A stretch of DNA of 64,000 bases. Origin: Streptomyces sp. NBC_01260 (lineage in GTDB: Bacteria > Actinomycetota > Actinomycetes > Streptomycetales > Streptomycetaceae). Both the position numbers and the translations under genes were made by a program. Below the pieces are notes generated by a model. That model searched no databases. It had not been told where the DNA came from and worked only from the letters and a program-made list of their open reading frames with translations. The stretch is from positions 4,960,001 through 5,024,000 of the forward strand of contig NZ_CP108464.1 in NCBI RefSeq assembly GCF_036226405.1, read 5' to 3'. This document shows positions 6,149 to 9,797 of the stretch, in pieces. Numbering within the stretch: the stretch's first letter is position 1; every line of letters starts with the position of its first letter.

Positions 6149-6185
6149 CGAGAGCCCCCGTGCACCTGGTGCACGGGGGCTCTCG
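6149..6185. terminator. Bidirectional terminator hairpin between convergent genes
   Basis: A 17-bp perfect stem (arms CGAGAGCCCCCGTGCAC and its complement) with a 3-nt loop lies between the 3' ends of the MMPL gene and the kinase-TIR gene. No T-run follows, as is usual in Streptomyces. Confidence 0.8.
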
Positions 6186-6193
6186 GCATGGGA

Positions 6194-7804
6194 CTACGTA
6201 CGCTCGAATCCGTGGGTCCGGAGCGCCCGGTCCAGGTGCCAGAACGTCTTGTCGATGGCGTTGCGCGGGAAGGTGATCGTGTACGGCGCGGCGACCGCGG
6301 GAACGGACTCGCAGCCCTCTTCGGCCAGGACCAGCACCCGGTCGAACCCGCAGTGGCCCTGGAACAGGCCGATCTCGTGGATCACGTTCTGGCGGGCGAC
6401 CAGGTGCCCGTCCCCCGTGGTGTCCTCCGCGGTGAGTACGCAGATCGCGAAGCTGCAGCGCTGCATGTAGTCCGCGAGCGCCTCGGTGACCTGGCGGCTG
6501 CCCCACGCATCGGACTCGAAGGAGTAGACGGGCAGACCGAACCGCCGCTCCACGAAGGCCTTGACGGCCAGCCATTCGGGATTGCGTCCATGGGCGACGA
6601 AGACCCCCACGGGGCGGCCCGCCGTACGACGGGCCGCGTCCAGGGAGCGGATGAAGTCCCGGGTGACCTCGGCGAACTGGCCGTGGCCGTGGCTGCCCAC
6701 GTAGCGCAGCTTGTGGCGTGCGAGTGCCATGCCGAGCAGGGAGCCGAGTTCGACCTGAAGCCGGTCTCCGGTGATGACGGCGATCAGGCCGGCGGCGAAG
6801 ACGTCGCCGGCGCCGGTGGCGTCCTCGACCTGGTCGTCGGGGAGCACCGCCTGGGAGTAGAAGTCATCCAGGGCCTTGCCCCTCTCGCGGCGCCAGGACT
6901 GGATTCCCGCGCGGCGTTTCACCACGATCACACTGCGGTCGCCGGTGACCCGATCCAGGAGGCGCGCGGCGACATCCGCCTCGGTGTCCTGGTCGGTGCG
7001 GCGGCCCAGTTCGTGGAACTCGCGGTGGTTGAGCAGCAGGTAGTCGGCCAGCGCGACGATCGCTTCGGTCTCCGGGGTGGGCTGGGCGCTCCAGACGTGG
7101 CCGGGGTCGACGCTGATCAGGGTGTGGGGGCTGGCCCGCTTGACCGCCGTGAGAAGGGCGAGGAGCTGCGCGGGGGTGCGGTCGTCGAGGAAGGAGGTGA
7201 CGTGGATGACCCGGGCGTCGGACAGGTAGGCGACGAGCTCGTCGAAGGAACGGTCAAGGTGGTCGGCCATGGCGGCATTGGCACCGGCATGGGTGAGCAG
7301 GGTGCGTTCACCGTCCTCGGTGAAGGAGAAGCACACGCCGCACAGGTGCTCGTCGTCGCGGAAGACGAACGAATGGTCCACGCCCAGTGCTTCCATCTGC
7401 TGAACGGCCGACAGACCCGGGCCGGGCACGCGCCCGGCGACGCCGACGTATCCGAGGCGCAGGTCGAGCTGGAGCTGCGCGAGCGTGTGGATGGCGTTGT
7501 AGGCGGAGCCTCCGAGCGAGGTCTGGAGGGACGCGGCGTTGACGGCTTCCAGTGCCGCGTACACGGTGGCCTCGTCAACGGCACTCTCCGTGCCCCACTC
7601 GGGTGCCGGCCGCCCGGCGTCGAGCAGACCGGCGATCCGTTCGACGAGCGGCGTGGGGCGCTCGGTGTCCTTTCCCCGCTCGGAGCCCCTCTCCCGGTCG
7701 GAGTGGGTGATGTAGTCGAGGTTCAGGGCTCCGATCCCGACCACATCCAGCGCGAAGCCGGGGCGTGGCGAAACCGCCGGCCTGTTGGTGGGGTCACTGG
7801 TCAT
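6194..7804 (-). CDS. PfkB-family kinase fused to a C-terminal TIR-like domain (intact catalytic residues)
   Basis: 536-aa two-domain protein. Residues about 18-390 are a ribokinase-like PfkB fold: GGSAYN at 98-103, SVDPG at 231-235, and the DATGAGD signature with catalytic Asp334. Residues about 399-535 resemble the TIR-like domain of CAP12/PCTIR proteins (Pfam PF10137): VFVAHGRN, then FAICVLTAED, then the diagnostic ARQNVIHEIG with Glu477, then DRVLVLAEEG. Those domains cleave NAD in STING- and cyclic-nucleotide-linked immune effectors. RBS AGGAGG lies about 8 nt before the ATG, inside the preceding paralogue's 3' end (11-nt overlap), so the two are translationally coupled. Kinase substrate and TIR activity are unknown; the fold calls come from motif recognition. 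Confidence 0.82.
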   Translation of the reverse strand: MTSDPTNRPAVSPRPGFALDVVGIGALNLDYITHSDRERGSERGKDTERPTPLVERIAGLLDAGRPAPEWGTESAVDEATVYAALEAVNAASLQTSLGGSAYNAIHTLAQLQLDLRLGYVGVAGRVPGPGLSAVQQMEALGVDHSFVFRDDEHLCGVCFSFTEDGERTLLTHAGANAAMADHLDRSFDELVAYLSDARVIHVTSFLDDRTPAQLLALLTAVKRASPHTLISVDPGHVWSAQPTPETEAIVALADYLLLNHREFHELGRRTDQDTEADVAARLLDRVTGDRSVIVVKRRAGIQSWRRERGKALDDFYSQAVLPDDQVEDATGAGDVFAAGLIAVITGDRLQVELGSLLGMALARHKLRYVGSHGHGQFAEVTRDFIRSLDAARRTAGRPVGVFVAHGRNPEWLAVKAFVERRFGLPVYSFESDAWGSRQVTEALADYMQRCSFAICVLTAEDTTGDGHLVARQNVIHEIGLFQGHCGFDRVLVLAEEGCESVPAVAAPYTITFPRNAIDKTFWHLDRALRTHGFERT

Positions 7805-9374
7805 GGCGACTGCCTCCTCGCGTCAGAATGCCCTCCCTGATCAGCATCCGCTCCAACTCCAAGAACGTGCTGTGGATACGGTCGGGCCCGTAGTCGAGCC
7901 GAATCAGACCCGCGTTGTTGGAGAACGGTTCGCATCCCTCCTCGGCCAGGATGGCGACGCGTCCGAAGCCGTAGTAGCCCTGGAAGATGCCGACCTGGTG
8001 AACGGTGTCCTCGCCGGCGCGCCTGCTCCCGCCGCCCATCAGGCGGGTGGCGGAGAGCACGCACACCGCGAAGCCGCTGCGGGCCAGCTGCTCCCGCATC
8101 AGCCGGGCGTACTCAGGGCCGGACGCGTGCTCGACGCTGAGCGCATGGACCGTGAGGTGACAGTCCTCGACCAGGAACTGCCGAAGGGTCTGCCACTGCG
8201 CGCCGCCGTCGTGGGCCACCAGTACCGCGGTGGCCCGGGCTCCCGGCCCGGTCAGGGTCTCGGCCGACTGCAGGAAACCGTCCCGGCCCAGCGCTGACGC
8301 GCCGGAGGCCGGGCGGTGTGCGGTGCGGTGCCGTGACAGGCTCAGGCCGAGGTAGGAGCCGAGCTCCACCTGCAGCCGCCGGGAGGTGGCTGCCGCGAGG
8401 ACGGAGGCGGCGAACACGTCTCCGGCACCGGTGGCGTCCTCCAGTGGCTTCTCGCGTACGGGCCTGCGCAGTTGGAACCGCTGCTCAAGGACGCCCTGCG
8501 GGGAGGAACGGAAGACCTTCACGAAGTCGTAGCGCTTGGTGACGAACACCGTCGCCGTGGCAGAGCACCGGGCCAGAACCCGGGCGGAGAGCACCTCGTC
8601 GGACTCGCCGAGCGCGTACTCGCCCAGCGCCCTGAATTCGCGGTGGTTGACGAACAGCAGGTCGCTCAGGGCGAGGATTCCGTCGATCGCCTCGCTCCGG
8701 TGCTCGGCCCAGTCGAATCCCGGGTCGAAGCTGATCCTCAGTGCCGGATTGCGCAGGCGCGCGTCGGTGAGCACGCGCAGCATCAGCGGGGGCGTGTCCG
8801 CGTCCAGGAAGGAGGTGACATGCACGATCCGTGCCGCGGCGAGGTAGTCGGCGATCTGATCGCCGTACCGAAGCAGGTGATCCGCCATCGCGAAGTTCGC
8901 GCCCGGATGCGTGAGCATCACCCGCTCCACGTCGTCCGGGTAGGACAGGCACACCCCGCACAGCAGGTCGGGGCGCCGCCCCACGAACCGCCGGTCGATC
9001 CCGAGCCGGTCCATCTGTCCCACGAAGGACAGCCCGGGGGTCTCCATCCGGCCGACCACCCCGACGTACCCGAGCCGGATGTCGAGCCGCATCTGGGCCA
9101 GCGTGAAGATGGTCAGCCACGCCGACCCGCCCAGCGAGGCGTCCAGCGACGAGGTGCCCAACCGCTCGATCGCCCTGGCGATGGTCGCGGCGTCGACCGG
9201 TCCCTCGGTGTTCCACTCGAAGCGGGCCGTCGATTCCGACACCTGCTCCGTCATCCCGGCCGACAGCCGGGACGCGCTCGCGATGTAGTCGACGTTCAGT
9301 GCCCCGAACCCCACCACCTCGACGGACCGCAGCCCCTGCGCTAAGTCTCCAACACCGTCCACGGCGCCCCCCAC
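7794..9374 (-). CDS. PfkB-family kinase fused to a degenerate TIR-like domain
   Basis: 526-aa paralogue and upstream partner of the neighbouring kinase-TIR gene. The kinase part is complete (GGSAW at 82-86, DATGAGD with Asp319). The C-terminal part (about 382-520) aligns with the TIR-like domain, but its signature residues have changed: HGRN is HDGG (388-391), LTAED is LSATR, and NVIHEIG is DTVHQVG, putting Gln460 where the catalytic Glu is expected. It is therefore probably a non-catalytic sensor or regulatory subunit. The GTG at 9374 follows GAGGAAG by 11 nt; an in-frame stop lies 30 nt upstream. Codon 11 is a rare TTA. No later good start avoids it, because VEVVGFG is already the first kinase strand. 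Confidence 0.8.
   Translation of the reverse strand: MGGAVDGVGDLAQGLRSVEVVGFGALNVDYIASASRLSAGMTEQVSESTARFEWNTEGPVDAATIARAIERLGTSSLDASLGGSAWLTIFTLAQMRLDIRLGYVGVVGRMETPGLSFVGQMDRLGIDRRFVGRRPDLLCGVCLSYPDDVERVMLTHPGANFAMADHLLRYGDQIADYLAAARIVHVTSFLDADTPPLMLRVLTDARLRNPALRISFDPGFDWAEHRSEAIDGILALSDLLFVNHREFRALGEYALGESDEVLSARVLARCSATATVFVTKRYDFVKVFRSSPQGVLEQRFQLRRPVREKPLEDATGAGDVFAASVLAAATSRRLQVELGSYLGLSLSRHRTAHRPASGASALGRDGFLQSAETLTGPGARATAVLVAHDGGAQWQTLRQFLVEDCHLTVHALSVEHASGPEYARLMREQLARSGFAVCVLSATRLMGGGSRRAGEDTVHQVGIFQGYYGFGRVAILAEEGCEPFSNNAGLIRLDYGPDRIHSTFLELERMLIREGILTRGGSRHDQ
9342..9344 (-). other. Rare TTA leucine codon (possible bldA control)
   Basis: Codon 11 of the upstream kinase-TIR gene reads TTA. 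In Streptomyces this codon is read by the developmentally controlled bldA tRNA, so translation of this gene, and of the coupled downstream gene, may be delayed until differentiation. Valid only if the GTG at 9374 (or the GTG at 9362) is the true start. Confidence 0.7.
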
Positions 9375-9446
9375 CAGATTCGTCGCTTCCTCTGCGCCGA
9401 GTCATACCCTCCCCGGGGGTTCATCCACCGCACGACGGGGGAGCGC

Positions 9447-9797
9447 TCAGGCGCGGGCGGTCTCGGTCCTGGTCTCGGTGTGGGTGCGCCGCAGGAAGCG
9501 GATCAGGGGGGCGCTGTCGAACTGCACCACCTCGACGCCGGTCGCCGAATGGAGCTCGACGACCAGCTGGGCCCGGCCGCACGGCCAGATCCGGTAGCCG
9601 TCGTGCTCGACCGGGGCGCGCAGCCCGCGCTCCAGTAGCTCGCGTTCGAGGGCCCACTCCGCGCCGCCGGGGAAGGCGACACGGATGGTATGCGGAGCGG
9701 CGGCGGTGTCGTATCGCAGCTCGACCGGGACCGTGGGCAGGTCGCGGGCGTCGGTGACGAGCCGGGCGCGGGCATGTTCTTTGATCACGGGGGACAT
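9447..9797 (-). CDS. SsgA-like sporulation and cell-division regulator
   Basis: 116-aa member of the SsgA-like family unique to sporulating actinomycetes; members guide septum placement and peptidoglycan remodelling. Family features seen: VPVELRYDTAAAPHTIRVAFP near the N-terminus, WPCGRAQLVVELHSATG, and the C-terminal VVQFDSAPLIRFLRRT. It is somewhat shorter than SsgB (about 137 aa). Strong RBS AGGAGGAG before the ATG. It lies 72 nt upstream of, and in the same direction as, the kinase-TIR pair, so it may head that operon. Which SsgA paralogue it corresponds to is not clear. Confidence 0.9.
   Translation of the reverse strand: MSPVIKEHARARLVTDARDLPTVPVELRYDTAAAPHTIRVAFPGGAEWALERELLERGLRAPVEHDGYRIWPCGRAQLVVELHSATGVEVVQFDSAPLIRFLRRTHTETRTETARA

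Follow-up and report, generated by a model that had tools for sequence, protein, structure and literature searches.

A paired PfkB kinase–TIR cassette in Streptomyces suggests a TIR active site divided between two paralogues

In this work we have analysed a stretch of 64,000 nucleotides from Streptomyces sp. NBC_01260 (contig NZ_CP108464.1, positions 4,960,001 to 5,024,000 of the forward strand; the whole stretch is called the window below), with focus on two overlapping genes that each join a PfkB kinase to a C-terminal TIR domain. The first-pass annotation of the sequence had placed both genes correctly, without giving their strand; they lie on the minus strand, with the upstream copy, here called B, preceding the downstream copy, A. 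Since the catalytic glutamate is kept only in A and the loop residue that a TIR domain donates in trans is kept in B, a single composite NAD-cleaving site would form at each A:B contact. The sister proteins probably work only together, and the pair is perhaps a phage-triggered self-destruct switch.

According to the open reading frames, A has 536 residues and B has 526. They are paralogues with 40% identity across 518 aligned positions, and they are the sole two matches in the host genome at E values up to 0.001. The genes overlap by 11 bp, and a Shine-Dalgarno-like GAGG together with the ATG of A lies within the 3' end of B. Because a 98% identical relative has 522 residues, B may start at the GTG at 9362 and not at 9374. 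Both proteins exceed the cut-off of the PfkB profile (E=9.4e-26 for A and E=8.7e-16 for B). In the C-terminal part, A matches PF10137 with 63.5 bits (E=2.4e-17, cut-off 24.7) as well as the solved chains of Cap12 and PycTIR (9lmq, 8jsj and 7un8, E 0.0006-0.009). B, on the other hand, stays under the PF10137 cut-off with 19.4 bits (E=0.0011), and its profile matches 9lmq and 7un8 weakly (E 0.12 and 0.2), but in an hhalign profile comparison its C-terminal 137 columns align over their whole length with seven close TIR relatives (99.9%). The earlier assignment of a TIR domain to both copies holds directly for A, and for B it is supported by this alignment. No STING or SAVED domain was matched in either protein by profile search.

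We now turn to the TIR active site. The available part of PMC9402430 describes an NAD pocket in SfSTING that uses R78, N80 and E84 among others, with D110 coming from the opposite TIR mate, and the available part of PMC12421889 describes a composite TIR site made from the BB loop of one TIR and the DD loop of its neighbour. In these parts of the two papers, TIR domains of the TIR-STING type require TIR–TIR contact of this sort. The SfSTING residues R78, N80, E84 and D110 correspond to R471, N473, E477 and column 503 of A, a mapping that is fixed by the spacings of −6, −4 and +26 from the Glu, which match exactly.

Searches gave 451 protein matches for A and 371 for B, and the counts reported here are for the best 120 of each, ranked by likeness to the query; more distant members of both groups lie beyond these. 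One B row without a TIR match was dropped from the residue counts (120/121 kept). Glu477 and Arg471 are each present in 123/123 A copies and in 0/118 B copies, and the Glu column of B is occupied by Q (101), R (9), L (5), H (2) or K (1). When the query and its 120 listed relatives are taken for each gene, the Glu is found in 121/121 A copies and in none of the 118 B copies with a residue (3 gaps), so the Glu477/Gln460 difference first read from this one pair is a non-random split. B has also lost the HGRN and TAED motifs, as had been noticed, both being degraded. For the loop the situation is reversed. Column 503 is Asn in 117/117 B copies (3 gaps) and Gly506 is kept in 117/117, whereas in A an Asp or Asn at column 503 is seen in just 11/123 copies and Gly506 in 11/123.

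The outgroup TIR domains (14 close and 26 far) have both features, with the Glu in 40/40 and an Asp or Asn at column 503 in 39/40, the remaining one being a gap. When six viral-contig rows (L038-L043) are left out and the count is redone, the numbers are 34/34 and 33/34, again with one gap. For three further proteins (P0245, P0246 and P0250), which gave no TIR-profile match and were not counted with the 26 far outgroups, the motifs were taken straight from the sequences. In the kinase–TIR fusions outside A and B, the Glu is present in 11/11 and the loop residue in 10/11; the DNA was seen for one of these (L014), where the fusion is a single gene.

The reciprocity extends beyond these positions. 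The 14 close outgroups have 35 conserved columns. B has lost six of these that A retains (406, 458, 461, 471, 477 and 480), A has lost another six that B retains (502, 503, 506, 528, 530 and 531), and the two sets are completely separated along the TIR domain. Strict complementarity between Glu and loop residue is found in 48 of 54 A:B pairs. In a quick TIR tree of 68 rows, A and B have supports of 97 and 98, and one Glu change is needed; on this tree the catalytic Glu is shown to be lost once, at the base of B. The B TIR domain is under purifying selection, with dN/dS of 0.06-0.60 in six comparisons, some of them near saturation. The alignments favour two complementary half-sites with B as more than a dead partner, because only B keeps the SfSTING-type inserted loop that is mostly lost from A. 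The active/inactive heteromer of the first-pass annotation is hence retained in part: a heteromer is the natural reading of the split and the pairing, while the label of inactive does not do justice to B.

We also considered tandem TIR genes on rhizobial plasmids (L044, L045, L046 and L047) as a second case of splitting, and rejected it, as both copies keep both features at 3/4 loci. The Glu is present in all eight copies; at L046 the second copy has it too, but the frame stops before the DD loop. Genes of VapC type and for integrases lie near the tandem TIRs of L045 and L047.

The two genes also travel together. In the lists of 120 relatives each, 53 A contigs share their exact size in bp with a B contig, with 0 repeats inside either list, and we take each shared size to imply a single contig that carries both genes. 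The DNA was read in seven genomes, namely the window genome, S. laculatispora (L012), S. cyaneofuscatus (L009), S. triculaminicus (L008), Streptomyces sp. JJ36 (L010), Bailinhaonella (L011) and G012, and in 7/7 of them B lies directly before A on the same strand. An in-frame start of A overlaps the stop of B at 6/6 junctions inspected. For 54 pairs, the distance matrices of A and B correlate with r=0.944, the best of 2000 permutations giving 0.196. The listed relatives come from Streptomyces, Kitasatospora, Plantactinospora, Nocardia, Dactylosporangium, Lentzea and other genera. The pair is sporadic: with the own genome included, it occurs in 3/150 genomes drawn from the genus, 3/394 from the family, 3/394 from the class and 2/396 from the phylum, where the draws overlap and scoring was confined to the top few candidates of each genome. 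A fourth matching genome in the genus draw has a TIR protein without this kinase. Among 9 matching plasmid records and 1 phage record, none covers 80% of A (0/9 and 0/1), that is, no full-length relative was found there.

On the basis of these results, we propose with a probability of about 0.55 that A and B constitute an obligate two-subunit system that forms a composite NADase site at each A:B contact, in which B activates in trans and the output is NAD+ depletion. The kinase domains would dimerise A with B, and a nucleoside- or ribose-like ligand would bind together with ATP in the kinase pocket of A, and perhaps also in that of B. On ligand binding, the A TIR, with the catalytic Glu, the Arg and the BB-loop side, would meet the DD-loop side of the B TIR head to tail, and each such contact would give one complete NAD-cleaving site. 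As A:A and B:B contacts would make no normal site, the arrangement would guard against accidental firing. The resulting loss of NAD+ would most likely lead to abortive infection once phage disturb the nucleoside pools.

A number of points weigh against this proposal. Most of the pairs rest on contigs of equal size, the DNA having been read in 7 genomes, and the correlation between the two distance matrices is expected from plain co-inheritance too. In 6/54 pairs, A also bears an Asp or Asn at column 503. The six viral-contig outgroup rows were obtained with a pattern that holds the Glu, and with the remaining 8 close outgroups the reciprocal columns are reduced to 5 and 4 of 30 (406, 461, 471, 477 and 480 kept in A and lost in B; 502, 503, 506 and 528 lost in A and kept in B). 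The reciprocal columns, neighbouring ones included, are moreover not mutually independent. The mean identity of the B TIR (0.52) is lower than that of the A TIR (0.63), and a passive cap would look likewise. Finally, inspection by eye of the genes around the pair in the window, and at pair loci other than those of JJ36 and S. triculaminicus, revealed no recognisable defence gene, and the neighbours vary among loci.

Both kinase domains keep the DATGAGD and NxxE motifs, and the last Asp of GAGD is present in 121/121 copies of A and of B. In ribokinase this Asp is the catalytic base, while the Asn of the GG..N motif contacts the sugar. The Asn is kept in 121/121 A copies and in 14/121 B copies, where the position is L in 91, I in 15, N in 14 and A in 1, and the Trp just ahead of it is invariant in B (121/121). 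At 50 columns conserved in 27 other kinases of the clade, A has lost none, with 3 partly lost, and B has lost four (N103 of GGSAFN, G339, L366 and G370), with 5 more partly lost. The earlier view that both kinases are complete is thus right as regards the DATGAGD and NxxE motifs, but the substrate motif of B is altered, GGSAWL replacing GGSAFN. Our guess for the ligand is a nucleoside or ribose phosphate, since the nearest named relatives are ribose-1-phosphate kinases (far under their cut-off) and adenosine kinases.

The wider family was surveyed by a search with an Acidobacteriota fusion (best 120 of 136 matches, with Pfam run on ten). By Pfam, kinases of the same clade are joined to TIR_2, to a DpnII-MboI nuclease or to an N-terminal class III cyclase; in P0268 the cyclase is placed C-terminal by eye, and C-terminal membrane helices and winged-helix-like tails were also seen by eye. 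Since members of the PfkB clade outside the pair have other TIRs, cyclases, a DpnII-like nuclease or membrane helices as fusion partners, the comparison suggests that the kinase would serve as a swappable sensor. Seven clade kinases with a class III cyclase, DpnII-MboI nuclease, TIR_2 or, as judged by eye, a C-terminal membrane helix (P0260, P0261, P0268, P0280, P0257, P0279 and P0282) point to a possible modular sensor family. In the trees, a long, fully supported branch divides the clade from the few generic PfkB rows used. Within the clade, the branching of the effector types is only partly resolved, and in the quick tree long branches lead to the TIR_2 and nuclease rows. That quick tree showed a cyclase fusion as the neighbour of B; the careful one did not place it there, and nothing is built on it. 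The careful tree groups A with lone actinobacterial kinases (95/93), which may for this reason be descendants of A after TIR loss. The combined proposal, a two-subunit immune NADase split by reciprocal degeneration that is at the same time a branch of a wider unrecognised family of PfkB sensors with swappable effectors (a membrane helix, a DpnII-like nuclease, a class III cyclase and several types of TIR), is put forward tentatively, at a little under even odds.

Some loci of clade kinases can be described here. A lone kinase lies beside a pentapeptide-repeat protein and further genes (L055, 561-3863), one of them TIR-like by eye and without a Pfam or PADLOC match. The Acidobacteriota kinase–TIR gene (L014, 8766-12733) has three neighbours of note: a phage integrase, a gene resembling guanylate kinases and, judged by eye, one resembling NUDIX hydrolases. 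In a Bifidobacteriaceae metagenome-assembled genome (L015, 1696-7150), a kinase with a C-terminal transmembrane (TM) helix, by eye, precedes a small TM-like protein, after which comes a gene for a type IIG restriction-methylase on the opposite strand.

The pair is an insertion after an ssgA-like gene (Table 1). Among the loci of 18 relatives, five have this gene at most 1.5 kb from an MMPL gene with no pair between them, while the other 13 show no MMPL within 1.5 kb and are uninformative on the empty site. In the empty-site relative L068, ssgA is followed by a hairpin resembling the one after gene A, with matching sequence beyond, and for this reason the insert is about 3.2 kb, with A and B its only recognised genes. 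S. laculatispora shows the same arrangement as the window genome. The developmental role suggested in the first-pass annotation finds no support in the ssgA-like gene, which marks the insertion site, and a sporulation function was consequently dropped. Around the other pairs, the loci read, mostly by eye, revealed no conserved third gene. Of the loci read, only that of Streptomyces sp. JJ36 has a gene for a SLATT_3+SLATT_1 effector with two TM segments, on the strand of B and separated from the probable start of B, a TTG, by ca 20 bp. A NERD-UvrD helicase is encoded 4 kb upstream of the pair in S. triculaminicus. Ten neighbours were picked by eye for PADLOC and Pfam, and 3/10 matched PADLOC, one of them weakly (E=0.0004), with no comparison against background.

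Table 1. Coordinates of the paired genes, their domains and key residues, and features of the insertion site (window positions unless a locus is given).
Feature	Position	Strand	Remarks
Gene B, PfkB kinase–TIR without catalytic Glu	7794..9374	-	First of pair; alternative start GTG 9362
B kinase domain, residues ~17-376	8247..9326	-	NxxE and DATGAGD kept; GGSAWL instead of GGSAFN
B GGSAWL, residues 82-87	9114..9131	-	Substrate-motif Asn replaced
B TIR domain, residues 382-518	7821..8231	-	Below PF10137 cut-off; aligned by hhalign
B Gln460 (CAG), at catalytic Glu position	7995..7997	-	Glu in 0/118 B copies
B Asn486, column of SfSTING D110 (trans-donated residue)	7917..7919	-	Asn in 117/117 B copies with residue, 3 gaps; PMC9402430 (available part)
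Gene A, PfkB kinase–TIR with catalytic Glu	6194..7804	-	Second of pair
A kinase domain, residues ~18-386	6647..7753	-	0 outgroup-conserved columns lost
A TIR domain, residues 399-534	6203..6610	-	PF10137 profile, structure-chain alignment
A Glu477 (GAG), = SfSTING E84	6374..6376	-	Glu in 123/123 A copies
Two-gene cassette insert, ssgA-like stop to hairpin	6185..9446	-	Empty-site relatives; right edge approximate
Terminator-like hairpin after gene A	6149..6184	-	Counterpart follows ssgA-like gene in empty-site relative L068
ssgA-like host gene at insertion site, outside the system	9447..9797	-	
JJ36 SLATT effector gene	L010 ~7476-8375 (= L065 17693-18592)	same as B	Upstream of pair

Other explanations have also been considered. 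B could be a dedicated inhibitor, a dead paralogue that caps the A TIR in the manner of an antitoxin until a ligand or a phage factor removes it. The Gln, close to Glu in shape, that occupies the catalytic position in 101/118 B copies would fit such a role, as would the position of the B gene ahead of A and the lower conservation of its TIR domain. A cap, however, needs no loss in A, and the loop Asn and Gly are kept in 117/117 B copies and mostly lost from A, which makes an inhibitor unlikely in our view. The TIR pair could instead produce an ADP-ribose-type signal for another effector, beyond NAD depletion. The two-TM SLATT gene just ahead of B in Streptomyces sp. JJ36 would fit this, but the other genomes read showed no comparable partner beside the pair, with most neighbours assessed by eye, and A and B are the only recognised genes of the insertion in the window. 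We regard signalling of this kind as distinctly improbable.

A metabolic or developmental enzyme pair, that is, a nucleoside or sugar kinase with a regulatory TIR tail and no relation to phage, was considered as well. The intact catalytic-site motifs of both kinases, the adjoining ssgA-like gene and the lone kinases in the clade are all compatible with it. The occurrence in 3/150 genomes of the genus, own included, the insertion at the ssgA-like site and the swapping of effectors within the kinase clade speak against it, to the extent that we give it very little credence. Of the readings examined, the obligate two-subunit NADase is the one that we carry forward.

Comparison with known systems shows both likenesses and differences. 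CBASS consists of a CD-NTase and an effector with a cyclic-nucleotide-binding domain, and Pycsar of a PycC cyclase gene and an effector with a cyclic-nucleotide sensor. The present pair matches neither STING nor SAVED and its insert holds two recognised genes, the rest of the genome not having been searched for a CD-NTase. There is also no cyclase in the inserted unit, cyclase fusions having been seen only in other members of the kinase clade. PycTIR (PDB 8jsj) has a related TIR domain; here a kinase stands in place of the cyclic-nucleotide sensor, and the cyclase gene is missing from the inserted unit. In PADLOC, the A TIR matches PDC-S35 (best, E=5.8e-11), the TIR 'Effector' and the PycTIR models, and the likeness to PDC-S35, one of the candidate defence proteins, is confined to the TIR domain. 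In Kongming, a nucleotide-pool cue feeds an NADase; it is made of deaminase, HAM1-like and SIR2 proteins and is not known to include PfkB or TIR. A parallel in the TIR site is TIR-STING/Cap12 of CBASS (SfSTING, PDB 7un8), a PF10137 TIR whose NAD-pocket residues Glu, Arg and Asn can be aligned with the present proteins, as can the DD-loop position donated in trans, and which is activated through TIR–TIR contact according to the available part of PMC9402430. Unlike here, a single protein holds both halves together with a STING sensor, whereas the present halves are on two paralogues with a PfkB kinase as the putative sensor. The human sirtuin pair FAM118A/FAM118B likewise consists of two NAD-processing paralogues that are weak singly and act as partners, but it has the SIR2 fold instead of TIR and is of vertebrate origin (PMC12700824, available part). 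No kinase–TIR defence system was found in the literature searched, which was mostly open-access with few subscription papers or bioRxiv preprints, in line with the remark in the first-pass annotation that no described system of this form was known to it.

In the current view, a TIR active site becomes complete through the TIR next to it, and here evolution has apparently separated the two halves into two genes. This separation at the gene level makes the neighbour-completed model testable by single-residue experiments, and the split site offers the logic of a safety lock for a suicidal enzyme. If the kinase clade is indeed a sensor, folds of metabolic kinases would join the ligand sensors of immunity, with a cue that points to a nucleoside or ribose phosphate.

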